A DNA stretch of 64,000 bases, from positions 1-64,000 of the forward strand of contig JAEEYO010000011.1 of NCBI GenBank assembly GCA_016288205.1. The letters run 5' to 3'. The stretch is from Treponema sp. (GTDB lineage Bacteria; Spirochaetota; Spirochaetia; Treponematales; Treponemataceae). The number at the start of each line of letters is the position of its first letter. Position 1 is the first letter of the stretch. The position numbers were made by a program, and so were the translations under genes. The notes under the pieces are model-generated. The model searched no databases and was not told the origin of the DNA. It saw only the letters and a list, made by a program, of their open reading frames with translations. Shown in pieces: positions 3,649 to 59,021 of this stretch.

Positions 3649-3761
3649 ATAATTATGTAAAGAAAATTTTATTTCATGGTGAAATCTCATTTTTCCCTAA
3701 AACTAGGTAATCATTAATCACAAAAACTGGTACAAGTACACGGCACTGACAGCCCCAAAAT

Positions 3762-3857: not shown

Positions 3858-3875
3858 CAAGATTTTATAAAAAAC

Positions 3876-3921: not shown

Positions 3922-3949
3922 GCAGAGTCAAAAAAAAAGGAGCTGCATT

Positions 3950-26419: not shown

Positions 26420-29400
26420 CTACCTCATCTGGGCGGTCTCTACAGTAGTATCAGGTGCAGTTGCCCAAACCTGATATCCCAGAATAGGATAGTCCGTTCC
26501 GTTTCCATAAACCTTGTTTCCGTTTGTGGTTTGCCCTCCGGTATAACTAGTAATAACTCCTGTAGAGTTATTCTTCCACACACCGACATTGATTCGGCTG
26601 TTGTTCGGAGAGCTCGAATCTACCTTGTAGATATTCTTCGGTGTGGGAACATAGGTCACCTCCCAGTTTCCTGTAAAGAAATCCTCTGATGCACCAGCCG
26701 CAAAATCTGTTGAAACAAGCTTTGCAAGTTTCGGATACTTGTCATAGACATAGCCGATATATGGAACTGCATGAGAACCTGTTATTGTACCATTATCATC
26801 GACATCATTTACCAAGCCAACATCCAGTGTGAGCTGCTTACCTACGACACTTCTTGAATCCACAATGCAGGAATCAGTTGCCTCACTATAGCCTTCACCA
26901 GTGTAAGAAGCCAATCTTGCATAACGCACATCTCCCCTGATGGAATCGTAAGCCGCAATGTGCACACCACCTTTTCCATCAACCTTTACCTGACAGAACT
27001 CACCGGCACCTTCAAAAATCGTCTTTGCTCCTGACCAGTTAGCATGATTGAGACCACAGAAATGATTACTTGTATCACGCCAATCTTCATTCAACGGATT
27101 CGTATTATAAGTATAGCGAGTACATTTGGCGGCAGCGTCATACCATACAAGCACGACTGTCCCAGCGCCTGATGGAGCAGAAGCAGGTACCGTCGCTATG
27201 GAAACATAGGGGCCGGCACCTCCAAGTGGAGTACCATCATACTTCGCGGAGATACTCGTCTCAGTTGGCTTAAACGATGTTGCAATCACCTGCGCATCCC
27301 TGCAAGAATAATAACCCGCATTGACATTATTAACAGAATTTTCATTAATAGTTTTGGTCTTATAGGCATCCCTGAATATATTTCCCGAATAAGTGCTACC
27401 ACTAACTTTTCCTCCCCTGAACCTTATTTCACCGTTCCAGCTGTCATAGTAAGCGATGTATACATTTGTTGTCGTCCCGCTTAGATAGGTCGCCATTACA
27501 GGATTCTTTATCTTATTCTTAAGATTGTAGGACTCAGTATCCCTGCCAGAATGGTCTTCACCATCAACTCTTTTGCCCACCTGACCGGTAAGTTCAATTC
27601 TGTAATTACCATCTCCTTTCTTTCCATAAACCCAGAAAGGATCCGCTTTATTATCATCAGAATCTTGACCGGCAGAACATCCATAAGTATTTCCAGCAGT
27701 GTCATAGGTGAAATATCCGCTTACCATAAAGTCAGTTGTCGATTTCTTTCCTGTCTTATAGGAATTATCGGAACTCTCTGGCATAGCAAACCACATGGCT
27801 CCATCCAAGAAAGAGAATCCCAGCATGCCATTGTTCGGGTTTATCTCCATATGCGGATCATCTGTTTTTCCTGTTGTTGATGCCGCTCTGGAGTTAAACT
27901 GCCAGACATCGATTTCCATGTCGTCGGTGAGGCGGTTGTTTGTGGCTCCGTCCGGGAATCTGTTCGGGTAGTTGTCATAGAGCTTGTTCTTCTTGGACTC
28001 GCTGTAGGTCTTGGTGCTGGAGTACTTTCCCTTGGCATCATTGTCGTTCATGTTGTTAATAGAGACCATGGTGTTAACAGTTACGGTAAACTTTCCTGAG
28101 TACAGGGAACTTGCCGCAACCTTGAACAATGAGTAACCATTGTAACTGGTCGGATCATTAGCACCAGGAGCCGCGAGCGACACAGAATGAGATTTATTAT
28201 CCTTGAAAGTTGCTCCCGTCGCAAGATTAAATCCATAGACGAAGAACGACTCATCCTTGTTTACCGGGAAATGGCCCAGTGCGGTTCTGTCGTAGAAAGT
28301 ACGTCCTGTCGTTGAGAGGGAAGTCCTCAGTCCGAGGATATAGGGCACTACATCCATCTGATATTTAGACTTGTTCTCAACTCCATCAACCTTAGTCGTG
28401 TCGTCATCGGCAGGAGAGGTAGTATAGCCGCCGTCCATAGCATAAACAAGCAGCTTAACGTCCTTGTTTGCACTTCCGGCAATCTTGGAAGTGTCTACAC
28501 TCAAAGTCCAGCGAACTTTATGTCCCCTCTGATCGAAGTAGACAGGCTCCACGGCAATTTCCCAGAAATCATCAGCCATAGAAGGTGAGGCTACATTCCA
28601 TCCGGTATCTCCAGTACCTGTATAGTTCGCAACCTCAAAGCAGTCGACATCACCCACAGTATAGGTTCCGCCTGAACAGAATCCGTCAGTCACATGACTA
28701 GTGAATGTCATGCCGCCGAAGTTCATCAGCAGAGATTTAATCATTGTCTCATCATAGGCATATCCGGTAAATGTCACCTTACCAGAAACCTTGGGATCTC
28801 CGTCATACTGTCCGTTAACAGCTTCAGAACTATAAGAGGTTCCATCCTTCTTCCACTCATAATCGAGCTCAATGTGACCGTTTGCCTTGCTGTTCTTATA
28901 AAGGCTGTTGTCGCTGCCGCTGTTCCAGTAAAGCGGTTCAATCACCGTCCTTGGAGGAACTTTGTCAGTAAGAGAAAGCTCAAGATCCATGATACGGAGC
29001 ACACAACTCTGGGTCGTCTGACCTTGAATAAGCTCTTCAGTTGAATCCCAGATTGTAAATGACATCACCTTGGATCCGTCGTCACTAGCCGTCCAAGTAT
29101 TCTCCTCTTTTCCCGTGAGCAACACGTTGGAGAGCACATAACCGGAAGTTACCTTAGTATTGCCGGTGAAATTCGTAGTGGCTGCATGAATCAGATCAGT
29201 TCCAGAGCCCTGAGTCGGAGTCGGATAAATGTATGTTACGCCATCATCATCTGTTCCTGAACCCTCAGCATCCTCGGCATCCCTGTTGAACACAAGGAGC
29301 TTCTCCCCATTTCCGCCAACCAGCTCAGCATACAGGGCAAGCTTGTTCGTGATCTTGAATGCCGGCCTTGTGCTTGCAGAAACGACCAAGGACTTTCCGC

Positions 29401-39220: not shown

Positions 39221-39655
39221 AGACCTACCTCACTATAGGGCTCACCAAAAACAAAGTTTTCAGTGTTTTCCTGTACTAGCCACATGAAGAATAACCGCAG
39301 CTACCCTTCAGTAAACCGCCCATCCCATCAATATAGAATCGGCACAAAAACACCTTTCGCACAGCAAAAGATACAGGCATCCTTTAAACATCACAAGGCT
39401 TCTGACAGTTACGCACAACGACGGCACTGAAAGTTCCTCACGAGATGCCACGAATTTTAAATCATCACAATACAACAATTTAAAAATCGTACCAGAGTTA
39501 CCTCTGTATCAACTTTATAATTTTGCAGGTCAGACCGGAGTGTTGGAATTTTCTCCAGCCATTAACCCATATTTTACTCCAAATTCCCCAAAATGTCAAA
39601 CATTTAGGAATTTTTTTCATCAGGATTCCCCCCGCACAAGACGGAGGGAACCGAA
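39221..39655 (-). other. 435-base gap between the two giant lipoprotein genes
   Basis: AT-rich leader region of the 4266-residue gene with no credible ORF. A hairpin at 39623-39652 (GGTTCCCTCCG / CGGGGGGAATCC on the minus strand, 11 pairs, one bulge) lies just after the stop of the upstream gene. It lacks a T-run, so it may stabilise or process the mRNA rather than terminate it. No promoter with good boxes was found. Confidence 0.35.
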
Positions 39656-42600
39656 CTACTTCATCTGGGCGGTTTCGACCCAGTAGGTGGCTCCATCCTC
39701 ATTTCGGATATAACCTACAACAGCATTTGGTGAGCCATTACCGTAACATTGTCCATTATACAAGTTACCACCAAGATGATAATCGTTCGTACCAGTCTGA
39801 GAAGCTATAATTCCACCAGATGAATCCTTCCAAAGTCCGACGTTTATTCTGTCCTCAGAGATAATGCTGCTTGTTGGCACATAAGTGCATTCCCACTTTC
39901 CAGTGAACAACTCAGAGGCAGCTCCTGCACTAACTCCGAGATTTGCTCCTCCCGGGAGACAGGCCATCTTCGGCATGGAACCAGCATAGTAGCTTATGTA
40001 AGGAACAACCTTAGTACCGACAAGTCCGACATCCAGCGTAAGCTGGGTTCCGACAATTCCATAAGAATCAACGATAACGGAGTTATCTGCTTCAACATAG
40101 TCCGCTTCAGGGGAACTCAGATATGCGTAGCGCAAGTCTCCATCCAGGATATCACAGGCCGCAATGTGCACTCCCCCATTACCATCTACGGCAACCTTAC
40201 AGAACTCTCCTGCACCTGTGAAGATTTTCTTAGGTGTTGCCCAGTAGTCAGTCAATGTTCCTGTTCCTGTATAGCGGGAAGTAGCATTTCCACTCATGTT
40301 ATCTGGAGTAGAATCATTAATTTCCTTGGTACCCGTAATGTTCTTGGTGTATGTATACATTGTGTTTTCCCCATCATACCAGACAAGCACAACCCTGTCG
40401 TCAGTGCCTGTTGAAGACGGTATAACATCAATACATACATATTCACCGGCATTGCCCAATGTACCGCTAGAATGAGTGCCGTCATCAAGCGTGTCAGCTA
40501 TTACCTGTATATATTTGCCATAATACCAATGCTTGTTATTATTACCAAGATTAGCCTCCGTACACCAATCGTTAAGATAACCTGCACTTTCTTTGGCACT
40601 AGCTGTAAACTTTCCCCATTTAAAGCGTATCTCCTTGTTTATACCATCGTAATAGGCAAGATAGACATTGGTTGAAGCGGTCCTTCCAGATCCGCTGAAA
40701 CTGTTAGCCGCAATAGACGGACTCTTTATGCGTCTCTTGTCGATTCTTTTAGCAGAACTTGAGGCATCTGCTTTAATGCCCCACTGACCGATTTCCTCCA
40801 GCCTAAGGCTGTTACCTTCATCCTTAGCACCACGCAACTTTAGACCAGTAAGATTTTTGCCCCAACGACCGGTCATAAAAATCCACTTGGCATTTGAAAA
40901 ATTACCGTTAATATCGCCACCTGCTCCTACCGCATACGCATTGCCAGCCCTGTCAAATCCAAGACCGACTGCGGACCATGCGTCATAGTCCCTTGCCCAC
41001 AACTCATTGGAGCGATCATTGGCAGCCGTATCCGCATTTCCCCTAGGAATAGAAATCGCACCACTACCATTCGTAAATGCGAATCCGAGGAGCTTATTGT
41101 TCTGGTTGATTTTCATGACAAGATCACGAAGTTCACCCGTGCCAGTCTCTCCAACCGCAGCCTGATTGTTGATTGTCCACACGTCAATGTAGACATCATC
41201 GGTAAGCACGTTGTTGTTCGTGTTGTTGGGGCGGCGGTTGTAGTAGTTGGAGTAAAGATCATAGTCACCGCTCAAAGGAATAGTGTCCGGATGAAGCACA
41301 TAATTCTTGAGGTCATCGTCATCGCCGCCATCATAGCTTCCATGTCCGTCGTTGTAGTTAATGTTGTTGAGAGAGACAAGGTTGTTGACGGTCACACTGA
41401 ACGCTCCAGAGGCTGAGGTATCTGTAATTTCGTATGTCTTTACACCCGAGCTCAGGTTAAAGCCGTTTACTGTTACGGTCTCTCCCTCTCCACCGTAGTA
41501 CTGCACCGGGTAGTGTCCCATGGCGGTACGGTTGTACTCAGAGGCATCCTCCCTGGTGGTCATTGAGGAAAGGAAGGTCGTCAAAGACGTAATGTAGGGC
41601 ACTACGTCCATCTGATACTCAGGCTTGTTGTATGTTCCGTCACCTTCCGTTGCGTTGGCTGTTGTGGAAGCAAGGCGATTCGCGGCATCCTTTGAGATGA
41701 CCGTCACCTTCACGTCTGTCTGCGCAAGGTCAGCTACCTTTTCGGTATCCAGAGAAAGAGTCCATTTCACCTTGTGTCCGAGCTGGTTGAAGTAAGAGCC
41801 CTTGTCCTCAGGATCCACCTCAAACTTCCAGCCGTTAGTTATATCGCTGGAACCGTAAGTCCACACGCCTCCCGTGCAGTTTGCCGCAACAAGATATCCC
41901 GACTCAGTTCCAAGACTGCTTGTCAGCGAGAAGTGATCGAGCTTTATAAGAATCTTGGAAAGTCTTGTCTCATCAAAGGCATATCCCTCAATCTTAATCT
42001 TTCCGGAGACCTTTGGATCCCCATCCTTCTCAGCGTCAGAGCCATTGCTTACGTATCCGGTAGATTCCTTCCAGTCATCCTCAAGCTCAATGTGTCCGTT
42101 TGCGGAAGAGTTCTCATAGAGGCTGTTGTCATCCTCTCCCTTCCAGTAGAACGGAGTGATTGCAGAAGTAGGATTAACTACGTCCGTAAGATCAAGAGTG
42201 AAATCTTCTATTCTAAGCACGCTGTATTGAGTGGTATCTCCGATGTCAAGATCCTCCGTGCTGTCCCAGAATGAGAGGAGCACAGGAACAGTGCCGTCGT
42301 CATTGTTGTCATAACCAGCCCTGCCCGCCAAAGTCTCGTTGTCCACCTCATAGATTCCACCCGTCACCAGCCCGTTTTCACCGTGGAGATTTGTAGCAGA
42401 GGGGCCAATGAGTCCCGCTCCACCTACGGCCTTCTGAACAAGAGGTATTATCTCACTGTTTTCGTCCACCGTATAATGGGTACCAGCTTCCGAAGCATTC
42501 CGCGTGAACTTCATCTTTATGGGATCCTTTCCGCCTATGAACTCCGCGTAAACCGCAAGCTTGTTCTTTGCCTTGAACGCGGGACGAGTGCTTTCAACAA

Positions 42601-45600: not shown

Positions 45601-48600
45601 CCACAGTGTACTGAGTGTACATGCTTGAAGTAATGGCGTCTGTCTTGATGCTGACATTTCCTGCCACATCATAGGAGACAGGCAGCACGTAAAGTTTTCC
45701 CTGCTGAGAATTCGCCGCCACACACTGATTGAAGTTCAGGCCGGGGATGCTGAAGTTGTAGATTTCAGAAAGGTTCGCAGAGTCAAGCTTAGCGTTTCCA
45801 GCAGCCTCAGTTGAATCTGTGGTCAGCCCCTTGAACAGAGTCCAGCCAGAAATGTTCGTAGGCACGGAATTTCCAAAGTAAGTATAAATCTCCACTTTCT
45901 TCGGTGAGATGTTGTCATCCACGGTTCCCTTTACGGAAAGCTGTCCGTTTACAGAAGACGATGCGGATGGTGAAGAAATGCTTACGGTAGGACTTACGGT
46001 GTCAACCTTGAGCGTGGCGACAGGATAAGTCGCGACATTTCCAGCCCAATCCTTTATGGTCGCATAGACTTTCGGTGAAGAGCCAAGCAAGGCACTTGAG
46101 AACCATATGGGATCAGGCATGATGGTCAGCTCCCACTTAATCTCATTCGGACCGTCGGCAAGGAAGAAGTCCGGGTTTCCAGTCCACTGCTTGCTGTCAT
46201 TCCTGTAGAAATCTATAAGTTCGAAATCATCTGAATAAACATTTTGTACATTTGAACCGGAACCTGTCGTACCTGTCTTCCTGTAGAATCTGACATAACC
46301 GCGGGTCTTATATCTGTTACCGATCGGATCGTCCGTTGAAGACAATCTTGAGTCCTCATCATAGGCATAAATTGAATTCGCGTCGTTCTCGCCGACCCTG
46401 AAGTTAACGATTTCAATTCCAGCAAGACTATCAGACGCCGTTCCTGTCAGCGTAAACTGAGATGAGCCATTGGTCGGAACAGACTCTGTCTCATTTGTAT
46501 CAACAGAACCTGCATCAAGATCCACATTGATTCTGGCTTCCTTGACAGCACTCTTATTGCCGCATTTGTCAACTGCCACCAGATAGAGCACGTCCGTCGT
46601 AGTGTCGGAGGTCGCCGCGAATCCTGCCAGAGTTTCCCCGAAACTGAAATACTTAGAGCTCGGCCAATTTTCAGTTACTATAGAATCGCCGCTCATTTCC
46701 AAATTGTGCTCGGCATCGGTCTTGTACTTATCGACAACGGTTGTTCCATAATGAGGCAGAGTATATCCATCGGCAGAGACCGAGAAGTATCCGTTCATTC
46801 CGCTGATAACTTCATCCGCCGTCTTGGTCGGAATAGAGCCAGAGGGAACATTTGTTACTATATAATAGACCCTGTCGATTCCACTGCCGGCCTCATCGTA
46901 ATAACCGGAGACGGAGAGAGATGTCTTGTTCGCAAAGCTGCTGTCGGAGTATTTTCCTCCGCCAACGAAGAACACCTTGTCCTTCTTTACATCCACATTC
47001 TTGTACTTGTAGCCCGCCTTGAATACATTGCTCAGAAGAGAAGGAGCCGTGTCGTCCACAATCAGACTGAAGCTCTTTTCAACCGACGCATTTCCTGCGG
47101 CATCCACAGCCTTTACGGTAACGGAACCAGTTTCCTTGTCGTTCCATGCGGATGTATTCACAGTGAAGCTGAACGTCGGATCGCCCGGAGTTGTGACGTC
47201 AGTCAAAACCTCCACGCCATTTTTCTTCAATGAGAAATTCGTTATTCCTATGGCATAATTGTCCAGCACAGTACCGGAGAGAGTAAAGCTTCCCTTGGGA
47301 ATATAATATGTTGTTCCGGTAAGATAAGCACCGGTTCCGGTAAGTTTCACGTCATGGAGAGTAGGAGGTGTTGTATCCACCGTTACGGAGAACGATGTGG
47401 AGCCTTCATTTCCTGCCTGATCAACGGACACAACAGAAACCGTTCCTTGAGGAACATCGGAGCTTGCAAAGACAGCCTTCCACCACTTCACGGTCTTGCG
47501 GTTGGTATCAGACAAAACTCCCCATGTGCTTGAAGATGTCAAATCAGAGACACTTGTATTTGCCGCTGCAGTTGAATAAGAGACAGTAGCCTTGTTGGTA
47601 ATGTTCGTAGAGCCGTTAATGAACTTGATGCTGTTCAAACCGGAAATGTCATCGCTTACATGTCCATAAATAGTAAGGGACTGATTCCTGTTGGAAAGAA
47701 TCTGATGACCGTCGAAGGCACTGACAACATCCCCATTGGCATAATAAGCGACATCAATCTCGGCTTCGTTCAAATCCACGTGGATGGGGAAATCCTGAAC
47801 ATCACTCGGGTTTCCGGCGGCATCCACAGCCTGAATGTAAAGCCAGTTGTAAGCAGTATCCGTGTCAGACTCGAAATCCGTTGATGTCGTGTTGAAGGTA
47901 CCGTCTGAGCCGATGGCAACCACATCAGTGTAATCAGAAACAATGCTGTCAGGTTTAACGGCAGTGTCTCCGCCCCTCACCAGCTTGTAGTACACAGATC
48001 CCTGTTCCACGGTCTCCGTCACGGAACCTGCGAATTTCAGAGAGGTATTATTATAGTACTTGTCGGTATAGGCGGTCTTTAACGATGCGGCTCCGTCATT
48101 TATGCTCAGCCTGTCAGAAAGAACCGGCTTCGTTCCGTCCACAGTCAGGGTCACAGAAGATTCAGTAAAACGTCCGACCTTGTCCTTCGCTGTTGCCGTT
48201 ATGGTCCAAGTGCCATCAGCCGCAGGAGAGGTAAACTTAATTGTCGCTTCTTGATTTTGTCCGAGCGTTATATTGTTGTTGATTTCAATGCCAGCAGATG
48301 AGGTCGTCTCGGAAATTTCAGTTTCACCCCTGACAGCCTTAATTGATGTGCTCTCAAGATTATAGCTGTCATAAGAGGTGAAAGCAAACACCACGGACTT
48401 ATTGGCATCCAATGCGATGAGGTTGTAGACCGGATTGATTGTTGGGACTGTCAGTGTCGGCTTACTGAAATCAATCTTCAGGTCTGTAATAGAAGCCGGC
48501 TCAGACTGATTGTCAGCCTCATCAGTTCCACGAACCTCAATTTTCTGTTCCGCACCTTGAGTTATAGGAACGGTGAAAGACCATGCGACAGTGTTTTTTG

Positions 48601-51600
48601 ACTTTGGAGCGGAGGGTTCTTCCGTCCAGTCGCCCCATTCAGATCCGTTGAATATGCGGTACTCAAGTTTATTTGTACCGGAAACAGCGTCAGACCAATT
48701 TCCAGTTACGGTCAGCGAATAAGTTCCTGGGCCGGTGGAAGTAAGCCTGTTTTCAACGATTTCATTTCCAGCAAAAATTTCCTCGTTGCTCTCTATATTA
48801 AGGATGTTTACCGTAGGCGGCGCATTGTCTTTTGCCAAGGTACATACAGAAATCTGAGTTTCCTTTCCTGCCTTGTCCTTTGCTGTGGCAGTAACGTCCA
48901 CACCTGTATTTCCAGGAGTGAACACGGCTTTCCAAGAATGAACCGTAGTTCCATCAGCCGGAAGCGTTGTTGACCAAATCGAGTCGTCGTCATAGTTACT
49001 GTCATTTACAGAAGATGTGGAGTAGTAAACTGTCGGTGAGATTCCCGTAAATGTAATGGCTCCTGCACCCAATCCTGTTCCAGAATCAGAAACATCACCA
49101 TAAAGAGCCATCGCGGTACCCTTGTGATAAACTGTTCCCGAAATCTGCTTGAATCCGTCACCCACAGAATAATGAGTTGCCGTGAATGTCGGAGCGGTGG
49201 AATCCACATAGATATCGAAACAAACTGGCTGAGCACTGTGATTTCCGGCATTATCTACAGCCACGAAATAAAGCTTGTCATGAACATCGCCCACAGCGGA
49301 AGCAAATACGTCCGAAGTAAGAGTAAATGGAACGGCATTGCCCTTGCCAGAAACAGGAAGCTCATTTCCGCCGGACACTACATCATCAGCAGACGGATCT
49401 GATCCGACGTTGGACCGACGCTTTAACCAGCGGAGTTCCTTAAGACCGGAAGTACTTTCATTGACAGTTCCAGACAAAGTGAGGGTGCTACTTGTAAAGT
49501 AAGCCGGAGTACCCGCAGTATAGCTTCCAGTATATCCGTTTACCGTATAAGCATTCTGTACGACTGGAGGAGTTCCATCAACTGTGACGGAGAATTCCAC
49601 CGGAGTGACATTTCTGTTATCTGAATCAGAGGCCTTTATCCTGAGATTCCACACACCGTCTGCAGCAGTCGGAGTCAGGGTTATGCGTTTTACCCATTCC
49701 GTGGCATCTGATGTCTTTGAAACCTCACTTACAGCGAAACCTGCACTGGCAGAAGTCGTATATGTTCCACCATTTTTGCTTGCCTCAATTGTGAAAGTTT
49801 TCACTCCGGAACCATCTGTTACCGTAACATCATAGCTCGTAGCAGAATTAATCATAGTACGGTCCAAATTGGTGACAGACACCTCAGGGGCTCCCAGATT
49901 GACTTTCACTCCATCAATATTAACTGTATAGGAATTGCCAACATGATCCTCTGCAGTAAAGCTGTAGTTGGTACCCTTGCTTTCGGATACCGGAATAGAA
50001 GCGGTCCAGTTAAGAGTCTGAGAAACAGGTGATGACAACTCTGAAATAATTACAGGAGCACCGCCGTTTACTGAGTATTTCAGAGTTTTGATTCCAGAAC
50101 CATTAAGATCAGACCATGTTCCGCCAACATTATATTTGTACTGAGAGCTTTGAGCATCATAAACACACATGGTATCAAGGATGGTCTTGTTGGACATGAA
50201 TTCAGTGCCGTTGATTACGATAGACGGATTACCGGCATCCACATAGGCCAGATACTGCTTGCGTGGTGTTTCTCCACCGGCATTCTTTCCCTTGACAGAA
50301 AGCACGTAAGTATAATTTTTCTCAGTACCAGCCAGACTAAAGGTCGGTAGCTTTATCAAATACGGATATGTCGAATCAGAGGGAGTTACGTTTGGATTTG
50401 TCACAATCTGTGAGGAGGGACCGGAGAAATTTCCAGAATTAAGCTTAGTAAAACTGCTTATCTGTGTCAGAGAAGGTATATGTCCGCTGTAAAGGTCATA
50501 GCTTACCTGCAGTCCATCAGGCATAACATTGTGGCAGGAAGCACCGCTAAGTGAATCATTTACAGAAAGTTTAAAATTAATGGTACCGGTGTCCGTCCAT
50601 TTAATATACTGGCCGTTGTCAGCATCCAGAGTAGGAGCATTGCCGCTACCTGTGGCATGGAAACCAAACATCGTAGAGGAGTCGGAGGAGACCAGCTCAA
50701 CATCATCCATATCCGCTCCAGTTATCTCAACAATATAGTATCTTCCATTTACAATGTGGAAGCCGCTCTCATCTGAGGGCATATCCAACTGGTATGAGCC
50801 TGTAAACACGCCTGAAGTATTATCATACAGGTAATCTTTGTTGCCGCTTCCCTTATCCTCATAGATATATGTATTAGCCGCTCCTTCAGGAGTTGTCCAT
50901 GACGGACCTGCGGCAAGCAACTCATCAAGTTCTTCCCTTGTCAAAGTAGCAGACGGAGACTCGTAAATCTTTGCGGCGATTGTAGATGGGTTCACACCTA
51001 TACCGTCGTCACCGGCCTGGACGAGAATGGTCAGCGGATTTCCTGTCGTAGCATCCTCCCATGAGTCCGCATTGATTATGACAGAACCGCTCTCCGTCGG
51101 CACAGGAAGAGAACAGTTATTGATTGTATATTTAGGATTACTTGCGACGTTCATTTTGATCGCAAGGGGCGTATCACTATTCTCTCCCGAAAGAACCAGA
51201 GAGGCCGGATTGTCTGCGCATACCATATAACTGGAGGCTTCGTCATCATCACCCGCGAGAATGCTTTTTATTGCGTCGCACACTTCCTGAGACTCCTCAG
51301 ACATTCCGGTGAGGATTTTCTTCATATCCGCTCCGGTAAGCTTTGAAATACCGGATCCCTTCAGAGGAGAAGCAGGGTTTACATCGTACCATTTCAAACG
51401 GGCACTAAGGTTTTCTTCTATATATGTCTTCCGTGTGCTGTTTCCCGCAGCATCAGTCAGCTCAACGACAAGATAAAACTTCTGAGATCCCTTCGCAACG
51501 CAATCGTATGCACGGATATAGTTTTCATGTTTTATACGCTCATTCGCATTTACATCCGAAGGATCCTGATAATATTTTGCAATTTCAACGATGGTGTCAG

Positions 51601-52252
51601 AAACATCGAATCCAGAAAAATCTGACTTCTGAAGGACGACAGGTGTGGTTTCGCCCTCTTTGTAGAGGTAGACAGTCATTTTCTGAATGTTATGATCATC
51701 CGCAATCGTTCCCAAAATTTTTACGGATTTTCCGTATGCCGTCGGCTCACCTATATTAAGGGAGTTTGGCTTCGAGAGGAGGAAAATCGGGGGAGTGTTG
51801 TCAACGTCAAATGAGCGGGAGACAATTCCTGAGATGCGTCCCTGCTCGTCATAAGCCTTCATGCTCAAAGTGTATGTTCCGTCTCTCAGAGTGAAGTGCG
51901 AGCCGTTGAAATTATAATTGGAGCCGCCCTCGTGATTGAGAGTGAAAGACCATTCTGTTCCCCTGCTGTACGTTGAGATTTCCTGTCCGCTCAGCGGGGT
52001 GATTTCCTCACCAGTCTCGTAGTACCTGAGTGATTCTATGACCAGATGATCCATCTTCGCATCATCGAAGCAGGTTCCACTAACAGTGATGTTATGCCCC
52101 ACAGCCTCTTTAACGGCGGGGCTTACAATGGCGGCGGAAGGGGCTTCCGTATCAACGGCGGCTCCCAGACCGATTTCACAAGATGTCGTAATCAGTAGGA
52201 AAATCCCAAGACCCAAAAAAGCCCTAAAGAATGAAACAAATCTTCCCTTCAT
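39656..52252 (-). CDS. Giant Ig-like-repeat lipoprotein (4198 residues), paralog of the 4266-residue protein
   Basis: 4198 residues. ATG 52252 has GAGG 7 bases upstream (AGTGAGGT, the same box as at the paralog); an in-frame GTG at 52258 is too close to it. The signal ends in ITTSC and the mature N-terminus CEIGLGAAVDT is identical to the paralog. The 22 hinge motifs follow in the same order as in the paralog (DTEAP, DNTPPIFLLS, VDAGNP ... NPYGDRP, YDNTAP, NNPPRLAKV, TDVVNP). The EF-hand-like loop is DLNADNKYSDSE (about 3175-3186). The C-terminal region (from about 3715) has the same blades (VYLAYYDG, VVLVWYDG, VHIAACD) and ends VETAQMK. It therefore arose by duplication of the whole gene. 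Predicted to be an envelope-anchored, rod-like protein; ligand unknown. Confidence 0.88.
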   Translation of the reverse strand: MKGRFVSFFRAFLGLGIFLLITTSCEIGLGAAVDTEAPSAAIVSPAVKEAVGHNITVSGTCFDDAKMDHLVIESLRYYETGEEITPLSGQEISTYSRGTEWSFTLNHEGGSNYNFNGSHFTLRDGTYTLSMKAYDEQGRISGIVSRSFDVDNTPPIFLLSKPNSLNIGEPTAYGKSVKILGTIADDHNIQKMTVYLYKEGETTPVVLQKSDFSGFDVSDTIVEIAKYYQDPSDVNANERIKHENYIRAYDCVAKGSQKFYLVVELTDAAGNSTRKTYIEENLSARLKWYDVNPASPLKGSGISKLTGADMKKILTGMSEESQEVCDAIKSILAGDDDEASSYMVCADNPASLVLSGENSDTPLAIKMNVASNPKYTINNCSLPVPTESGSVIINADSWEDATTGNPLTILVQAGDDGIGVNPSTIAAKIYESPSATLTREELDELLAAGPSWTTPEGAANTYIYEDKGSGNKDYLYDNTSGVFTGSYQLDMPSDESGFHIVNGRYYIVEITGADMDDVELVSSDSSTMFGFHATGSGNAPTLDADNGQYIKWTDTGTINFKLSVNDSLSGASCHNVMPDGLQVSYDLYSGHIPSLTQISSFTKLNSGNFSGPSSQIVTNPNVTPSDSTYPYLIKLPTFSLAGTEKNYTYVLSVKGKNAGGETPRKQYLAYVDAGNPSIVINGTEFMSNKTILDTMCVYDAQSSQYKYNVGGTWSDLNGSGIKTLKYSVNGGAPVIISELSSPVSQTLNWTASIPVSESKGTNYSFTAEDHVGNSYTVNIDGVKVNLGAPEVSVTNLDRTMINSATSYDVTVTDGSGVKTFTIEASKNGGTYTTSASAGFAVSEVSKTSDATEWVKRITLTPTAADGVWNLRIKASDSDNRNVTPVEFSVTVDGTPPVVQNAYTVNGYTGSYTAGTPAYFTSSTLTLSGTVNESTSGLKELRWLKRRSNVGSDPSADDVVSGGNELPVSGKGNAVPFTLTSDVFASAVGDVHDKLYFVAVDNAGNHSAQPVCFDIYVDSTAPTFTATHYSVGDGFKQISGTVYHKGTAMALYGDVSDSGTGLGAGAITFTGISPTVYYSTSSVNDSNYDDDSIWSTTLPADGTTVHSWKAVFTPGNTGVDVTATAKDKAGKETQISVCTLAKDNAPPTVNILNIESNEEIFAGNEIVENRLTSTGPGTYSLTVTGNWSDAVSGTNKLEYRIFNGSEWGDWTEEPSAPKSKNTVAWSFTVPITQGAEQKIEVRGTDEADNQSEPASITDLKIDFSKPTLTVPTINPVYNLIALDANKSVVFAFTSYDSYNLESTSIKAVRGETEISETTSSAGIEINNNITLGQNQEATIKFTSPAADGTWTITATAKDKVGRFTESSVTLTVDGTKPVLSDRLSINDGAASLKTAYTDKYYNNTSLKFAGSVTETVEQGSVYYKLVRGGDTAVKPDSIVSDYTDVVAIGSDGTFNTTSTDFESDTDTAYNWLYIQAVDAAGNPSDVQDFPIHVDLNEAEIDVAYYANGDVVSAFDGHQILSNRNQSLTIYGHVSDDISGLNSIKFINGSTNITNKATVSYSTAAANTSVSDLTSSSTWGVLSDTNRKTVKWWKAVFASSDVPQGTVSVVSVDQAGNEGSTSFSVTVDTTPPTLHDVKLTGTGAYLTGTTYYIPKGSFTLSGTVLDNYAIGITNFSLKKNGVEVLTDVTTPGDPTFSFTVNTSAWNDKETGSVTVKAVDAAGNASVEKSFSLIVDDTAPSLLSNVFKAGYKYKNVDVKKDKVFFVGGGKYSDSSFANKTSLSVSGYYDEAGSGIDRVYYIVTNVPSGSIPTKTADEVISGMNGYFSVSADGYTLPHYGTTVVDKYKTDAEHNLEMSGDSIVTENWPSSKYFSFGETLAGFAATSDTTTDVLYLVAVDKCGNKSAVKEARINVDLDAGSVDTNETESVPTNGSSQFTLTGTASDSLAGIEIVNFRVGENDANSIYAYDEDSRLSSTDDPIGNRYKTRGYVRFYRKTGTTGSGSNVQNVYSDDFELIDFYRNDSKQWTGNPDFFLADGPNEIKWELTIMPDPIWFSSALLGSSPKVYATIKDWAGNVATYPVATLKVDTVSPTVSISSPSASSSVNGQLSVKGTVDDNISPKKVEIYTYFGNSVPTNISGWTLFKGLTTDSTEAAGNAKLDSANLSEIYNFSIPGLNFNQCVAANSQQGKLYVLPVSYDVAGNVSIKTDAITSSMYTQYTVDLDSDRPEISFNEITGTTGYNAKYRSSVGGIIHDDDAITAVKISPNPVDDWEAYTQPAGTLECDTGSSTVTFTYTPADGSDGAKPLYIYVEDEQGGKFWTAHTTTWMRPKVKFAQATDFVGLDGVVTYRFDSTPPAVKVYVASSSSAASARTAALNATDEATGIIRVGGSNTKFVGIKVLAKDENGIDGSSLTGTFGEGTPAMSSFSTASDVTIGTDVYKCWVATQDISSFGDGQKVCSVTVADNCGFESQPQVNFLFDKTGPVITMTTSQTVIFSGEVDLHGTTSDTLGSGVQDLKCFILTDDDFTGGVPNSDAILGSARTESPMEMDDEHTVYNWKFSPVLPAGSASALEPYDYAKEAGDIYTLKLAFYAKDSLGNETLDLTKVLRYNPYGDRPIAEIVYPDVKEGAYSADMSGSVRVSGTAVDNVEVSKVFLQIAFGHGELKTESGITTVKNAASGDTSFWSKTALAAACPSYSGQIVTTSTESLSGGNFDADPNFWGIQVTSTESWYITLNKSREFQNSASIDDPDAADKDKTYTIWIRAAAMDNNKLLGAWSTPVALSLNPNAPSIGGTVTPTVRFYTDAACTNAIAGSDIPYTPDMWISGNAKLITSAEHVNGISDLSYSVAEGDATATPVAAVSTNSEGAVTIANGASHHTGDTDGKCYDVEIILGTGSGGGSKLVQVSAIEKANGLSKTEYYTINYDNTAPTIGDFVLNDEAFAAGGKMQNSNLQLTVGGTVDDDDAGFERLLFYFYRSGTGNIYDPQLDYTDTSVSSTTALTSLVSSVEKNGEKLYSSRKTVNWINNTSFTMSEDVHVRKGGVAIINGHWYRIGSVLGTGTVTVNIEGGVADYTQAGNTVEFPYAQVVDNLSSETIKTWTSRGHSFRTGDDGDFMPESVSKSGTTWTWDATIHGNYIPDGPVTLVVFAADKAGNVSAKSVAGTLQNNPPRLAKVFLGTDLNADNKYSDSEFEPYDLYGVKGSYFEAYNLVTAGFSLMEGDEVVESTRPAFKAKNKLAVYAEFIGGKDPIKMKFTRNASEAGTHYTVDENSEIIPLVQKAVGGAGLIGPSATNLHGENGLVTGGIYEVDNETLAGRAGYDNNDDGTVPVLLSFWDSTEDLDIGDTTQYSVLRIEDFTLDLTDVVNPTSAITPFYWKGEDDNSLYENSSANGHIELEDDWKESTGYVSNGSDAEKDGDPKVSGKIKIEGYAFDETRLSKILIKLDHFSLTSSLGTESGYLVAANCTGGVWTYGSSDITNGWKFEVDPEDKGSYFNQLGHKVKWTLSLDTEKVADLAQTDVKVTVISKDAANRLASTTANATEGDGTYNKPEYQMDVVPYITSLTTFLSSMTTREDASEYNRTAMGHYPVQYYGGEGETVTVNGFNLSSGVKTYEITDTSASGAFSVTVNNLVSLNNINYNDGHGSYDGGDDDDLKNYVLHPDTIPLSGDYDLYSNYYNRRPNNTNNNVLTDDVYIDVWTINNQAAVGETGTGELRDLVMKINQNNKLLGFAFTNGSGAISIPRGNADTAANDRSNELWARDYDAWSAVGLGFDRAGNAYAVGAGGDINGNFSNAKWIFMTGRWGKNLTGLKLRGAKDEGNSLRLEEIGQWGIKADASSSAKRIDKRRIKSPSIAANSFSGSGRTASTNVYLAYYDGINKEIRFKWGKFTASAKESAGYLNDWCTEANLGNNNKHWYYGKYIQVIADTLDDGTHSSGTLGNAGEYVCIDVIPSSTGTDDRVVLVWYDGENTMYTYTKNITGTKEINDSTPDNMSGNATSRYTGTGTLTDYWATPKKIFTGAGEFCKVAVDGNGGVHIAACDILDGDLRYAYLSSPEADYVEADNSVIVDSYGIVGTQLTLDVGLVGTKVVPYISYYAGSMPKMACLPGGANLGVSAGAASELFTGKWECTYVPTSSIISEDRINVGLWKDSSGGIIASQTGTNDYHLGGNLYNGQCYGNGSPNAVVGYIRNEDGATYWVETAQMK

Positions 52253-52267
52253 AATCACACCTCACTC

Positions 52268-52282
52268 TGTGGAAAACCCACA
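52268..52282 (-). promoter_or_regulatory. Hairpin immediately 5' of the ribosome site of the 4198-residue gene
   Basis: TGTGG (52268-52272) and CCACA (52278-52282) form a 5-bp stem with a 5-base loop, ending 4 bases before the GAGG box. It could influence translation. The gap 52253-52502 holds no ORF and no convincing terminator for the upstream gene. Confidence 0.3.
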
Positions 52283-52502
52283 TGAACTCTCACAACAAAA
52301 ACTAAGCGACAACGCAGAAATCCGAATCGGTCTCCTGCCAGTCCCAAAGACACACAAGCGTCTTTTACGAACTTTTTCCATAACACTATATAATACAAGT
52401 CATGGCACCCCCGGAAGTTACGCGCTTTCAGGAATGCCCGCTTGGTTCAGTACATTTTATATGCCCTGACGGCACAATTCCGCCGCCACAGGAAATCCAT
52501 CA

Positions 52503-55500
52503 TCAGAACACGCTCGTCCTGATACCCAAAGCAAAGTTAAACAGCAGCGAGCTTCCAACATTGACGTCGGACGGTATGAACCAAAGCTGCGGTTCCATGT
52601 AGAAGGACCAGGTCTTGAAGTAAGACAGATCCTTGAAGGTCATCCTCGGGAACTCAAGCTGCATGATCGCCGCTGAAAGAATCTGAGGCTTGCCCGCACC
52701 AGACTGACTGAAGTATGAGAACTGGGCACCCAGCGAGATTGATCCGCTCAGCCAGTCGAAGTCATGTCCGAAGAAGTAGTTGAACGGCAGGTATCCGAGC
52801 TGTGCGATAATCTTCGCGCTGATTACATAAGGTCCACCATAGCGCATGTTCGTGAAGTCACGTCCGAGCACCTTGGAAGCCAGATCGCGCTGTCCCTGAG
52901 TGAACTGACCGAATGAGAGCTGGATCTTCACAGCGTTGTCAAATGCCGTAAGTCCGACACCGAAGTTCCAGAGCGTAGCACCCCAAAGGTTCAGGTCAAG
53001 GTAAAGTCCCTGGATGAACTTCGGAACCTCATAAGCGGAGCGGTCTCCCCTACGCAGGTAGAGCACCACATCCTCAAGCTCCACGTCATCGCTTGAAAGT
53101 CCCTCGAACTTGAGCTGCTGGTTGTAATGTCCGCCGACACCCGGAGAAATCAGCCTGACCTCAGGCAATGTACGGTCAACCTGCACGATTGTTCTTGTAA
53201 TCGCACTCTCACCGTTCGCCATCTCCGCCTTTACGAGCAGGAAGTGATAGCCCTCGGCAACATCCTGGTTCTCAATGCGGTACTTCCAGTCGCCCTTGTT
53301 GAGCTTAGATACCGGAGTATATGTCTTTCCGTTGTCAAGACTCAGGTATACGCGCTCGACTTTCTTTCCCTCAAGCGCAGTCCTTTCCTCAAGCGGCAGT
53401 TTCTTGTTCTTGAGGGCTGTCTTCTCCTCATCGGTAAGCGTGTAGCCGGCCTTTCCACGGAGCATCGGGCGCTCGATGGCAAAATCACCGTAAGTGAAGT
53501 TGTCCAGAGTTACCCAAGGTCCGTACGGATTGTAAATTACAGTCTGTATGTTGGACTTAACCTCACGTCCGGCATCGGTCTTCGCAATAACCTGATACGT
53601 GTGATTTCCCTGAGTAAGGCAGAACACTCCGGTCTCATAGACACCGGCGGCCTCTTCCTCATATACCTCAGGCTCAAACTCAGGTCCGTCGTATTCAACT
53701 CCAGCCTCCTGGGCGGCAGCCTTCGCGGCATCAATCTTAGCCTTCTTCGCCTCGTTCGCATTGTCCACGGCAAGTTTCTTCGCGGCATTTCTTTCCGCTC
53801 TCTTCTGTGCGTCGGACTCAGCCCTTGCAAGGTCAGCCTCGGAGAATGCGCCCTTGTCAACTGCAATCTGATTCTTCATGCGGAAGGTGAAGTATCCGGA
53901 ATCCCTGAGCTCAGTGGTAAGTCCCGGCACTCTCTCGCCGTCCACAAGAAGCGTGATTTCGGTAATTTTTTCCTCGACGCTCTCCGCCATTCCGTAGATG
54001 TTGAACTCACCCTGCACGTACTCGCCGTTCAGAGGATAGAGGAGACCGACCTTCGTTGTATGCTCGTCCTTCTTGAGATGCACGTTGCGGCTTACGCTCG
54101 TCACATTTCCGGCATCATCCTTTCCGGTTATCTCAACGTTATATGTTCCGTCAGCAAGCTCGCTTATGTCGAACACCTGAGAGATGATTGAGTCGGGATA
54201 AAGATCGTTCACCGCAATGTCAGCCGGAACCTTCTTTCCGTCCAGGCTGGTGATGCGCATCATAAGGCTTGAGAGACCGATGTTGTCCGTCGTCTGTCCT
54301 GAAATCACAAGGTTGGAGACGATCGTGCTGTCGTCAAGAGGAAGCTCCAGATGCAGCTCAGGCGCGGTGTTGTCCACGTTGATCAATGAGGTGAACAGAC
54401 CGGTAATGTCATAGCCGTCCCAAATCTTCAGATAGATAACGTGGGTTCCGTCCTGAATTACGCGGGTGTCAAACTCATAGCTCCATGTGGCCTTGTCCTC
54501 GCGGGTCTTGCCTGGAGTAACCACAGCCTCATTGTAGCTCGCACCGTTGTCCACGGAAACCTGCACGCGGCTGATTCCGTTCTTGTCCATTGCCCATCCG
54601 CTCAGGGTCACGAATCCGCTTACGGCAGCATCCATCTTCGGCAGCTCGACGCTTCCCTCAGGCTCAGCAAGAGAGACCTTGAAGTTGCGGGTCACTTCCT
54701 TACCCTTGACACCGTTGATGTCCTCTGCATAGATTGTGATGGTGTGCTCGTTGTCAGTAAGCATTGAGAGCGGGTTCACGGAAATCTCAAAGCTGGAGTG
54801 TCCGTCCGGGTTCTCAAGAATCTGGAAGTCACCGTCATCCATCTTATAGTAGGTTTTGCACATCGTTCCGTCGGAAGACTTCATGCCGTCATCATCATAC
54901 ATAACGCCGGTAATCTCGAAGGCCGTGGTAAGCACGGAATTCTCGAACGGCATGTGGATCTCAACCACGGGGAGGTCACCCTCAGGATCATAGTCGAAAT
55001 CATACTTGTCGATTACGGTCGTATTTCCGGCAAGGTCGCTGACAGTGAACTTCATAGTCTTGTCGATGGGAAGACCTTCCTGTCCGAGATATGTTGATGG
55101 CATGGGGCCGGTGAGTATGTTGGTGTACCTGTCAATCTTCCTCATCGGAGGAGCCTTCTTTTCAGCCGGTTCAGACTCTGCGGATGCCTCGCCTTCCTGT
55201 GCAGGAGCCTCTGAGCCCTCAGCGCTTTCAGCTTCATCACTTGTTTCCTCAGCCGGGAGATTGTCAGCAGCCCTCAAAAGGAATTCCTTCTTGATCTTGC
55301 CCTTCGGCCCCGTGAAGTGGATTGAGTCAACATAGCTGTCATCCTTTACCTTGAACACGAACAAAGTCTCTCCGTTGACGGATGAGCCCGGATCAGGAAG
55401 AATGATCGTGACCTCAGGAGGAGTTGAGTCCTTTCTGAGCGCGGAGTTGAAGAGGCTGACCTTTCCAGTCATGTCCACAGCACGGATTGTCACAGGCATA

Positions 55501-58500
55501 TATCCGTCCGGAACACCCTCAAGGCTGACTGTCTCTTTGAAGGATCCGTTGGAAGTCATGCGAAGATCCTTCCAGTCCTCATCAGTAGGAGACTCGGCGA
55601 CTGTATACTGCAATGATTTCACACCGTTTCCGTCACGTGCCGTACCTGCGATCACAAGCTTGTCCTTGATGTAGTCCATCGGCTTGATGCTGGTCACGTC
55701 AAGGATCGGAGATGATGTGTCAACCACAAGGTTCGCAGCAGGAGATGCCCATGATCCGCCCGCCTCGTTGGTAACGCGCACGCTCACATTGCTGAAAGTA
55801 CCGTCGCCGGAGGGAACGATTTTCACGAGTTTGCCGTCCGTAGTCACGCTGAGTCCCCTGACCGCCTTAATCATGGAGGCGTTCAGTTTTCCAGGAACGT
55901 TCGCGAATCCCACGAGAGGAGCGCCGTTGTTAAGAACATAAAGCCTTGAAGAGCTGTCATAAACAACGTTTCCGGCCGTGGTCCAGTAGATTGTCTCGGA
56001 GTTGTCCACAACGGCATGACGGCGAAGTACGCTCAGAGTTCCGGAAACATTGGAGCTTCCGTTAATGAGCGCGTTGATTTTCACAAGTCCGGCAGGCAGG
56101 TTCACAAGCGGAACCTCAATCTCATAGCGTCCTGCGGTTCCGGTCTCACGGATGGCACCCTCTCCCAAGGGATTTCCATTGGCCGTCCAGACCACAGACT
56201 GAATCGGAGTGTCAGAGCTGACCTGCGCGACAAGAGAATGCGGGTCGCTGTCAAGAGTTCCGCCCTTCTGCGCTATGAGCTCCATACCGCTCATATATGG
56301 CATTCCGTCCACGCTTACGAAACGTCCGTCTACAGCGGAGGATGCCTTGGTCACGTTAAGAGTCGTGCCGTTGAATTCCAAAGTGGAGTTACCCGAGGGA
56401 AGCTTTGCGTAGCTCTTGTACATATACATGGAGCCGACGTCCCCCTGATAAACGCATACACCATAATAGTCCATGCCGTCTCCGTCACCATGGAGCCAGT
56501 AAGACGCGGGAGGAGCAGGCTCGGCAACAACTCCGTCACTGAGATCTGCGCTCACCGCATTTCGGATCTTTCTGACCAAAGCAGCAGTGGATGAGTATTT
56601 TCCGGTTGCGTTAGTGGCGATGAACTCGACGACAGAAATACCGTCAACGAAATCATCCGCGCTGAGGTTAAGCGTAAAGGCACCCCTTCTCAATGGCAGG
56701 GTCGGACACTCCGCAAGTTTCGGAGCAGGGACCGCCTGTGAGCCGATTACAGTTCCGTTCTCATCATAAATAACCTTTGCGGCAAGAACCCTGTAACGCA
56801 CGGTGGCGGCTGACTGACTCACGACTGATCCCGAGAGAGTCAGAGTATTCTTTGTGTTGAAATTATTGAAAACGCCAGTCTGCAAGCTGTTGTCATTCGT
56901 AAGCGCAATGGTCGGAGCAGATTCCTGAGACGGGAAATAAAGAGGCTTGGACTCATATACAGCCCCGGAAGATGTCGTGACGCGCACAGTAAATTTGTCG
57001 GTCGGCACAGTGCATCTGAGGATGATTGAATTTCCTGAGGCAGAGGCAGAGATGGACTTGTTCTTCGGGCTGATCGCAACGCCTGCAATCTTTCCGCCAG
57101 CAAAGTAACCGGTGACATTTCCGTTTGAGTCAGCCTTCAAGGCTCCGTCCGCAGAAACAGCGCTGTCAGTGAAGAACACTCCCGCAGTCTCGCTGTAAGT
57201 ATGGGTATAATCAGAGACGTTGAAAATCGCTCCGTGAGTAGAAACCCTGTCAAATTTGTCCACGGCCTTAATAGTAAGCTTTGAGACACCCCAAGGAATG
57301 TCCTCGCCGCCGAAATCAATCTTCACGGTCGCGCTCTTGTTGCCGTCAACGCCCTCAAGGCTCTTCTCAATCTTGCCGGAAGTGCCCCATGTCCATTCAT
57401 AGGAAACGGTCTTAAGTCCGGTGGTTGAAGTAACTTCTATTGAATAAGGATCGCTGCCCTCAGGATTGATTGTCATTCCGTTGGCAAAATCAGCAGAGCC
57501 GTATTTTTCATTTGAGAATGACGGAGCAGCACCCTTTGATGAGAAATTCGCGGTAACAGTGTCTCCCTTAACTCCGAATTTGTCCACGGCATAAACGGAA
57601 ACCTTGTGCTCGCCGTTTGAAAGCTCACCCGGAACAGGGGCATAGAAAACGCCGGAGGACTCAAGCTTGTGCTCAGGGCCGTCATCAACGCTGTAGTACA
57701 CGGAAGCGACACCGTCATCATCATTCGCAAGACCACGGATGAAAAGCGCGCCGTCCTCACCGTCAACCTCGCCCACAGGATATTTCAGCTCAACGACAGG
57801 CTTGTCACCGTTCTGATTTATCCACACGATGTTTCCGGAATTCTTTCCGGCTTTGTCGGCATTCATGAAGGTGCGTGAGACGCTTGCCTCGTTGCCCATC
57901 GTATCAACTGCCTTGATTATGAAATCCCTGGAGCTCTTTACGGAGCGTGAGTCAAGCTCGATCGCCCAGTAGGGGTTTCCTGCGATCAGAGGAAGTGACT
58001 CCTCCTTGTCGCCCCATTTATAGATAAGGCTCTTGATTCCGTTTCCGTCCTTGGCGTAACCCGCAATCGTGAACACACCGTTGACAGACTCTCCGGTGGC
58101 AGGGGTAACGATCCTCATGTCAGGGCCAGAGTTATCTATATAATAGAGGAAAGATGAAATGCTCATCACTCCGCCGGTATCAATTCCCTTGAACCAGACC
58201 AGGGTCGGGCCGTCACGGAGTTTCTTTGTGTCAAACGGAAGGCTGAATGTCCAGTAAGCGGTGATGCCGTCCTCGTCAGGATTTGAGAGCTTGTGTTTTT
58301 TAAGCTTGAGAACCTCATAATGCTCGCCGTTGTCAAGACTGTACTGAAGGGAGTCGATTCCGTTTCCGTCCTTCACATATCCGTTCAGCGTCACCTTGCC
58401 GGAAATCATGGATCCCATCGACATGTTCGTAATTTCCACGACAGGGGCGTAGCGGTTAAGCTCCCATGTCACCTTCACGGAATGTCCGGTCTTGGGCTTG

Positions 58501-59021
58501 ACCTTTGCCTCGTCAACTGTGCCGTCCTCAAGGAGGTATGCGTTCGGATTTCCGTCATCCACGCCGTAAGCCTCGATCGTGTGAGGTCCTTCCTTCAGGT
58601 TAGTCGTATCAAGATAATATGACCAGAAATCGGTTCCCTGAACAAGGACAGGATTTTCCTTGTCGCCGTCAAGAATGAGGTAGACCGCGGCAACCTTGTC
58701 ATCATCATAACAGGTACCGACTATGTTGAGGTTTCCGGGGATGGTCATTCCGGGGAGCGGGTTGGTCACGGCGATAACCGGAAGGTCAGACTCCTCGTCA
58801 ATATAAACGTTGAAGGGGCCCGCTATTCCCTCGTTTCCGGCCTTATCCGTTGCGGTCGCATAAACGTTATACTTGCCGGACCGGTTCTTTATGTCAAAAG
58901 TTTCAGACCAGCTGTTTTCAGGGCCAACAGATTTCTCTGAGACCTCCTTTTTTCCGCCTGCGAAAGCGAGATTCGAGAGGAGTAGTAATCCGAATAAAAA
59001 AACAAGTCCTTTTCTGTCCAT
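52503..59021 (-). CDS. Large Ig-like-repeat surface protein with C-terminal outer-membrane beta-barrel (2172 residues)
   Basis: 2172 residues. ATG 59021 has GGAAGGA 7 bases upstream; the frame is open to 59090 without a better start. A signal peptidase I sequence ends LAFA|GGKKE, so this protein is not a lipoprotein. About 13 Ig-like modules follow, with hinges LPVIAVTNP, YAPVVEI, DNSGPDMRIV, DSTPPEVTI, DNTAPELHL and DRTLPEVRL. Two low-complexity inserts interrupt the modules: a Glu/Ala-rich one (about 1255-1300) and a Lys/Ala helix-rich one (about 1725-1790). From about residue 1990 alternating hydrophobic strands (LYLDLNLWGATLW, FGVGLTAF, SISLGAQFSYF, SFYMEPQLWFIP) lead to a C-terminal Phe (RTSVF), typical of outer-membrane barrels. 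It shares the YNPYG hinge with the two giant lipoproteins downstream, suggesting common origin and a joint role at the surface. Confidence 0.82.
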   Translation of the reverse strand: MDRKGLVFLFGLLLLSNLAFAGGKKEVSEKSVGPENSWSETFDIKNRSGKYNVYATATDKAGNEGIAGPFNVYIDEESDLPVIAVTNPLPGMTIPGNLNIVGTCYDDDKVAAVYLILDGDKENPVLVQGTDFWSYYLDTTNLKEGPHTIEAYGVDDGNPNAYLLEDGTVDEAKVKPKTGHSVKVTWELNRYAPVVEITNMSMGSMISGKVTLNGYVKDGNGIDSLQYSLDNGEHYEVLKLKKHKLSNPDEDGITAYWTFSLPFDTKKLRDGPTLVWFKGIDTGGVMSISSFLYYIDNSGPDMRIVTPATGESVNGVFTIAGYAKDGNGIKSLIYKWGDKEESLPLIAGNPYWAIELDSRSVKSSRDFIIKAVDTMGNEASVSRTFMNADKAGKNSGNIVWINQNGDKPVVELKYPVGEVDGEDGALFIRGLANDDDGVASVYYSVDDGPEHKLESSGVFYAPVPGELSNGEHKVSVYAVDKFGVKGDTVTANFSSKGAAPSFSNEKYGSADFANGMTINPEGSDPYSIEVTSTTGLKTVSYEWTWGTSGKIEKSLEGVDGNKSATVKIDFGGEDIPWGVSKLTIKAVDKFDRVSTHGAIFNVSDYTHTYSETAGVFFTDSAVSADGALKADSNGNVTGYFAGGKIAGVAISPKNKSISASASGNSIILRCTVPTDKFTVRVTTSSGAVYESKPLYFPSQESAPTIALTNDNSLQTGVFNNFNTKNTLTLSGSVVSQSAATVRYRVLAAKVIYDENGTVIGSQAVPAPKLAECPTLPLRRGAFTLNLSADDFVDGISVVEFIATNATGKYSSTAALVRKIRNAVSADLSDGVVAEPAPPASYWLHGDGDGMDYYGVCVYQGDVGSMYMYKSYAKLPSGNSTLEFNGTTLNVTKASSAVDGRFVSVDGMPYMSGMELIAQKGGTLDSDPHSLVAQVSSDTPIQSVVWTANGNPLGEGAIRETGTAGRYEIEVPLVNLPAGLVKINALINGSSNVSGTLSVLRRHAVVDNSETIYWTTAGNVVYDSSSRLYVLNNGAPLVGFANVPGKLNASMIKAVRGLSVTTDGKLVKIVPSGDGTFSNVSVRVTNEAGGSWASPAANLVVDTSSPILDVTSIKPMDYIKDKLVIAGTARDGNGVKSLQYTVAESPTDEDWKDLRMTSNGSFKETVSLEGVPDGYMPVTIRAVDMTGKVSLFNSALRKDSTPPEVTIILPDPGSSVNGETLFVFKVKDDSYVDSIHFTGPKGKIKKEFLLRAADNLPAEETSDEAESAEGSEAPAQEGEASAESEPAEKKAPPMRKIDRYTNILTGPMPSTYLGQEGLPIDKTMKFTVSDLAGNTTVIDKYDFDYDPEGDLPVVEIHMPFENSVLTTAFEITGVMYDDDGMKSSDGTMCKTYYKMDDGDFQILENPDGHSSFEISVNPLSMLTDNEHTITIYAEDINGVKGKEVTRNFKVSLAEPEGSVELPKMDAAVSGFVTLSGWAMDKNGISRVQVSVDNGASYNEAVVTPGKTREDKATWSYEFDTRVIQDGTHVIYLKIWDGYDITGLFTSLINVDNTAPELHLELPLDDSTIVSNLVISGQTTDNIGLSSLMMRITSLDGKKVPADIAVNDLYPDSIISQVFDISELADGTYNVEITGKDDAGNVTSVSRNVHLKKDEHTTKVGLLYPLNGEYVQGEFNIYGMAESVEEKITEITLLVDGERVPGLTTELRDSGYFTFRMKNQIAVDKGAFSEADLARAESDAQKRAERNAAKKLAVDNANEAKKAKIDAAKAAAQEAGVEYDGPEFEPEVYEEEAAGVYETGVFCLTQGNHTYQVIAKTDAGREVKSNIQTVIYNPYGPWVTLDNFTYGDFAIERPMLRGKAGYTLTDEEKTALKNKKLPLEERTALEGKKVERVYLSLDNGKTYTPVSKLNKGDWKYRIENQDVAEGYHFLLVKAEMANGESAITRTIVQVDRTLPEVRLISPGVGGHYNQQLKFEGLSSDDVELEDVVLYLRRGDRSAYEVPKFIQGLYLDLNLWGATLWNFGVGLTAFDNAVKIQLSFGQFTQGQRDLASKVLGRDFTNMRYGGPYVISAKIIAQLGYLPFNYFFGHDFDWLSGSISLGAQFSYFSQSGAGKPQILSAAIMQLEFPRMTFKDLSYFKTWSFYMEPQLWFIPSDVNVGSSLLFNFALGIRTSVF

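Follow-up and report, generated by a model that had tools for sequence, protein, structure and literature searches.

What kind of system is encoded by three giant genes that lie side by side and fill half of a sequenced stretch of a Treponema genome? The stretch analyzed here, referred to as the window, comprises positions 1 to 64,000 of contig JAEEYO010000011.1 (assembly GCA_016288205.1). About half of it (26420-59021) is occupied by three adjacent open reading frames (ORFs), P1, P2 and P3, all on the minus strand, as are all of their features described below. An earlier note on this DNA had read them as a surface apparatus made of one barrel-anchored partner and two very long lipid-anchored rods. 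The ORF calls agree with the trio and its sizes: P1 (26420..39220) and P2 (39656..52252) are predicted giant lipoproteins of 4266 and 4198 aa, and P3 (52503..59021) is a protein of 2172 aa with a signal peptide, a rod of immunoglobulin (Ig)-like modules and a C-terminal eight-strand barrel. Counted from a GTG codon, the P2 ORF is 39656-52258 (4200 aa) rather than the 4198 aa that start at the ATG at 52252; likewise the P3 ORF is 52503-59090 (2195 aa) from its first ATG and 2172 aa from the ATG at 59021. P1 and P2 (the giants) are paralogues, with 35.6 percent end-to-end identity, and neither has a BLAST match to P3. The answer that we tentatively prefer, with slightly less than even confidence, is that P3 is the outer-membrane docking or assembly partner of giants that are displayed at the surface.

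The P3-giant pair is a lineage-wide system found over much of the spirochaete phylum. A profile of the P3 barrel matched 208 of the 394 Treponematales genomes sampled, and the C-terminal module of the giants was found in 159 of the 394. Both parts are present in 156 of the 159 giant-positive genomes, where about 84 would be expected; this co-occurrence was counted by eye from two match lists, and the figure is at least 152 if four genomes with only weak P3 matches are subtracted. The giant-positive genomes without P3 are G088, G306 and G316. Phylum-wide the barrel profile matched 51 of 198 genomes; many of the weak matches cover Ig modules only, and complete barrels reach other classes. Among the matches listed, 34 of 47 same-contig P3/giant pairs are separated by no more than 15 kb. 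P3 is followed by the giants in most Treponemataceae, and elsewhere a giant lies upstream or is divergently oriented; a giant is found directly 3' of P3 in T. zioleckii and T. saccharophilum and several kb from it in T. bryantii. Giants near P3 in other families bear the same N-terminal motif (described below), with a looser form in the deepest lineages. The reduced genomes differ: a T. pallidum-sized genome of the family (1.1 Mb) has neither the barrel nor giants, and the barrel is missing from Borrelia-sized genomes (1.0-1.8 Mb). The earlier note had named a lack of conservation in relatives, of a barrel or of Ig-like modules as what would count against it; the pair is kept across the order and beyond, and barrel and modules were both found. 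The number of rods, given as two, is not fixed, since relatives have about 1 to 5 giants.

P3 starts with a signal peptide of the signal peptidase I type (58959..59021; cleavage between AFA and GG), as had been proposed; in the translation the cleavage is read between MDRKGLVFLFGLLLLSNLAFA and GGKK. For the other end, the last 371 residues were aligned with 51 relatives and folded with AlphaFold. Residues 202-369 of this model form eight strands, with block confidence mostly 80-94, and constitute an OmpA/NspA-like barrel that ends in Phe (52506..53015), in accordance with the C-terminal barrel and terminal Phe claimed before. VIA-align placed OprF (Z 13.5), NspA (13.2), CarO (12.5) and OmpA (12.2) near the top, while Foldseek returned mostly Ig matches for the model; the barrel was resolved by VIA-align. 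By sequence the C-terminal region had no Pfam or PDB match other than Ig domains and chance-level hits; P3 resembles the OmpA family through its fold and not through sequence homology. The barrel is preceded by a conserved segment of 48 residues (LRRGDRSAYEVP; 53025..53168), modelled with low confidence. In one genome two P3 barrels lie near each other (G149:C54 75929-84163), and in T. bryantii an exported protein of 996 aa with a Phe end and no Pfam match is encoded just upstream of P3 (L090 2567-5557); it is possibly another barrel protein.

The topology of P3 can be predicted from its barrel. An even number of strands brings both ends of a barrel to the same side. A comparison of 25 relatives, drawn from four families, shows that loops 1, 3, 5 and 7 of the P3 barrel differ in length (loop 3 has 4-25 residues and 8 different lengths), whereas loops 2 and 4 are constant and loop 6 is nearly so. 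The extracellular loops of eight-strand barrels are the variable ones (PMC8407342). With an even strand count and variation confined to the odd loops, the termini, and hence the Ig-like rod of P3 (53169..58958, about 20 modules by length), are predicted to face inward, and the rod should lie in the periplasm, not at the surface. This departs from the barrel-anchored surface rod of the earlier note; eight strands also leave no room for a passenger.

Ig-like modules had been claimed for all three proteins, and they were found in all three. In Pfam, P3 matches Big_7 (6e-49, 165 bits) and Big_13 (8e-18, 65 bits), both over the curated cut-off, and P1 and P2 match Big_13 (about 1e-11, 45-47 bits against a cut-off of 27). 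Simple counts of Ig boundary motifs gave only a mild excess over shuffled sequences, and therefore a repeat profile derived from P1's own repeats was used to count modules; it found 15 in P1, 14 in P2 and 9 in P3, with long stretches of P1 and P2 not covered by module assignments. In the P3 model, an Ig-fold domain (residues 31-149) matches sulfite-oxidase Ig domains with a Z of about 9.8 (VIA-align). The pentapeptide YNPYG, proposed as a hinge common to the trio, does occur once in each of P1, P2 and P3, yet the exact form is found in just 7 of 52 P3 relatives and YNPYG-x-RP, the form of P1 and P2, in none of 19 other giants. It was rejected as a common part on these grounds and is an ordinary Ig-linker resemblance.

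The translations of the giants contain lipoboxes (FAFSSC in P1, LLITTSC in P2), from which both are predicted to be lipoproteins, and the Cys is invariant in 17 aligned giants, in keeping with the lipid anchors first described. What follows the Cys is better conserved than the signal peptide itself, which is variable: every aligned giant has the motif C-x(1-5)-G-L-G-xx-[VI]-D-xxx-P, and C, GLG, D and P are invariant in the 17 giants, which come from four families. The predicted lipidated Cys and the motif lie at 39098..39139 in P1 (CEIGLGAAVDTDAP) and at 52139..52180 in P2 (CEIGLGAAVDTEAP). In 12 genomes, N-terminal matches to a profile of this motif were almost confined to very large ORFs, the exceptions (778 and 988 residues) both being in one genome; the genome studied here has two matches, P1 and P2. 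The first 200 residues of P2 are more conserved than the stalk that follows, a pattern that fits a putative docking site near the anchor.

At their other end the giants share with their relatives a module of about 640 aa, corresponding to residues 3622-4266 of P1 (26423..28357) and 3550-4200 of P2 (39659..41611, with the propeller at about 39659-40987). It has no noteworthy Pfam or PDB sequence match. Foldseek and VIA-align both found beta-propellers as the best matches to a model of the module, with PLL/PHL/AAL-type lectins first and sialidases next; the lectin match has a Z of 15.8 over 251 residues at about 10 percent identity, for a model with a mean predicted local distance difference test score (pLDDT) of 44. 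The module is likely to be a propeller, as the fold comparison supports and as the earlier reading of propeller-like C-termini had it, and the match offers a lead towards sugar binding.

The two parts of the system evolve at different rates. Identity to UBA3649, which is the closest relative, amounts to 82 percent for P3, to 48 percent for P2 and to 75-91 percent for flanking genes. In 18 same-locus pairs, which share genomes and so are not independent, P3 had a median identity of 0.63 and the nearest giant one of 0.35. These comparisons suggest a divergence rate for the giants about double that of P3, which appears to change at about housekeeping speed.

The anatomy of the system, its linkage, the topology logic and the rate contrast are supported by these computational results. 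In the mechanism that we propose, P3 would sit in the outer membrane by means of its OmpA-like eight-strand barrel, its Ig-like rod, whose N-terminal tip is strongly conserved, hanging into the periplasm. Exported as lipoproteins, the giants would be kept close to the outer membrane by the lipid at their N-terminus. We infer that from there they reach outward to the surface as long, fast-diversifying Ig rods tipped with a lectin-like beta-propeller, which may bind glycans of the host, of food particles or of other cells. P3 would act as the dedicated docking, assembly or tethering partner of the giants, in physical contact with them, and would probably read the GLG-xx-VD segment and the first Ig module next to the lipid anchor. 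A more specific version holds that GLG-xx-VD, by the lipid anchor, is a sorting signal and that giants are put on the surface by P3 as the cognate outer-membrane factor; this version is speculative, and we consider it improbable at present. Several observations weigh against the proposed mechanism. Kinship among the genomes, of which the hypergeometric value takes no account, inflates the co-occurrence of P3 and giants; in some complete genomes, G173, G206 and G208 among them, a long distance separates the two, and some P3-positive genomes have no match to the giant module. The low pLDDT of the propeller model makes the lectin resemblance weak. At the usual spacing of Ig modules the P3 rod would be about 70-80 nm long if straight; about 20 modules exceed the width of the spirochaete periplasm, and the rod would need to tilt or fold. 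The surface apparatus of the earlier note is accordingly retained in part: the exported trio, the Ig-like modules, the barrel, the lipid anchors and the propeller-like ends stand, and P3 as a surface rod is not supported.

Other explanations of the same data place the proteins differently. P3 could be mainly an outer-membrane tether or strut like OmpA or OmpM, the giants being periplasmic or structural rather than surface adhesins. The predicted periplasmic rod and the slow divergence of P3 both suit a strut, and OmpM provides a precedent for a barrel joined to a periplasmic stalk (PMC10628300). However, the Pfam scan of P3 showed no peptidoglycan-binding OmpA domain (PF00691), proteins with this domain being encoded elsewhere in the same genome; several near-complete genomes are without P3, which is odd for a basic strut; and the giants, which diverge fast, vary in number and have a lectin-like end, fit better at the surface. 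We regard this explanation as unlikely. That P3 is instead the adhesin, its Ig rod pushed out as an autotransporter passenger, comes near to the view of the earlier note, and classical (type Va) autotransporters indeed have the same order of passenger and C-terminal barrel. A weak match to the autotransporter barrel family PF03797 (E 0.019) even occurs in one of 25 relatives, but that barrel has 12 strands against the eight of P3, no helical plug was seen in the model, the structural matches are of OmpA type, and P3 evolves slowly, unlike a surface adhesin. This makes an autotransporter very doubtful.

A function in export must also be weighed, with P3 as a flipping factor by which GLG-motif lipoproteins would reach the surface, Slam-like in function and unrelated to Slam. 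P3 is genetically linked with GLG lipoproteins in several classes, and the conserved segment past the lipid anchor is almost confined to giants. A system for translocating surface lipoproteins has been proposed in spirochaetes and had not been found as of a 2020 review (PMC7857515). An eight-strand barrel, however, cannot accommodate a translocated chain, so that P3 could only be a guide or chaperone working with another channel, and we think an export factor of this kind rather improbable. Our preference, as stated, remains with P3 as docking or assembly partner of the giants.

The claim that no named system matches the trio is upheld, in that none of the families tested fits. With OmpA, OprF and NspA the P3 barrel shares the eight-strand fold, a C-terminal aromatic residue, variable odd loops and predicted periplasmic termini; unlike theirs, it is C-terminal to a very long Ig rod, no PF00691 domain was seen in P3, and the barrel sequence has no counterpart in Pfam or PDB. 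The giants resemble adhesins of the SiiE, MpAFP and LapA/BapA type in having thousands of residues of Ig-like modules, a long rod and a presumed adhesive end. Those adhesins are non-lipidated substrates of type I secretion, whereas P1 and P2 carry lipobox signal peptides, end in a C-terminal propeller and have a barrel-rod partner; no ABC exporter linked to the giants was seen among the annotated neighbours within the window. The giants' module resembles the PLL/PHL/AAL lectins in fold by VIA-align, at the low identity and model confidence given above, and is embedded in giant lipoproteins; lectins of the PLL type are seven-blade propellers with sugar-binding sites. Leptospira OmpL47 has the Ig-like repeats of spirochaete surface proteins and gives weak NCBIfam matches (Lepto_OmpL47, barrel_OmpL47), with scores far under the cut-offs (38.3 against 250 for P2, 26.9 against 40 for P3). 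OmpM of diderm Firmicutes is likewise an outer-membrane barrel with a periplasmic stalk, but it forms a trimeric porin and binds peptidoglycan through its stalk (PMC10628300), while P3 has Ig modules, a small barrel and giant lipoproteins as neighbours. Slam, too, is an outer-membrane barrel with a periplasmic N-terminal part whose gene adjoins those of surface-type lipoproteins, but it consists of tetratricopeptide repeats and a predicted 14-strand barrel (PMC7857515), in place of the Ig modules and eight strands of P3. Ig-repeat giants and OmpA-type barrels are already known and their pairing matches no family tested; in open-licence literature on giant Ig-like Treponema proteins we found no description of it.

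The pair, which is conserved across spirochaete classes, occurs in lineages of gut and rumen and probably in free-living ones too. It provides concrete genes for the possible material of long treponeme surface structures and for the question of how spirochaetes put lipoproteins on their surface, which the motif by the anchor makes directly testable. If GLG/P3 sorting were true, it would be a dedicated surface-lipoprotein system in spirochaetes.

Two candidates for further parts were considered. A membrane-anchored, solute-binding-protein (SBP)-like protein (320-425 aa) adjoins P3 or giants in several families (L064 11702-12979, L061 13141-14328, L195 13398-14576, and L201) and was considered as a third component of the system; it stays a lead, its gene in this genome being on another contig with unrelated neighbours. 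The other candidate, a small lipoprotein encoded between P3 and giant, was rejected as one conserved part because two further small neighbours (G040 and G044) are members of another family (Aminopep).

Within the locus, a strong promoter-like site, identified by consensus match only, is located 5' of P1 (39571..39599; TTGACA-17-TAAAAT, 11/12), and no promoter- or terminator-like site was seen by consensus matching in the gap between P3 and P2. A PDDEXK_2 transposase-family gene adjoins P1 (window 25411-26253), and another lies between the giants of a relative (L066 11912-12718). In a deep spirochaete genome, matches to the N-terminal domains of Cas12a (Cpf1) lie close to the P3 homologue (L186 18517-20000). 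Positions 1-4000 of the window form a stretch of low guanine-plus-cytosine content (0.31-0.33, against about 0.5) that contains a gene with helicase and helicase-associated domains (449-3550), as well as a restriction endonuclease domain match; this stretch was probably acquired.

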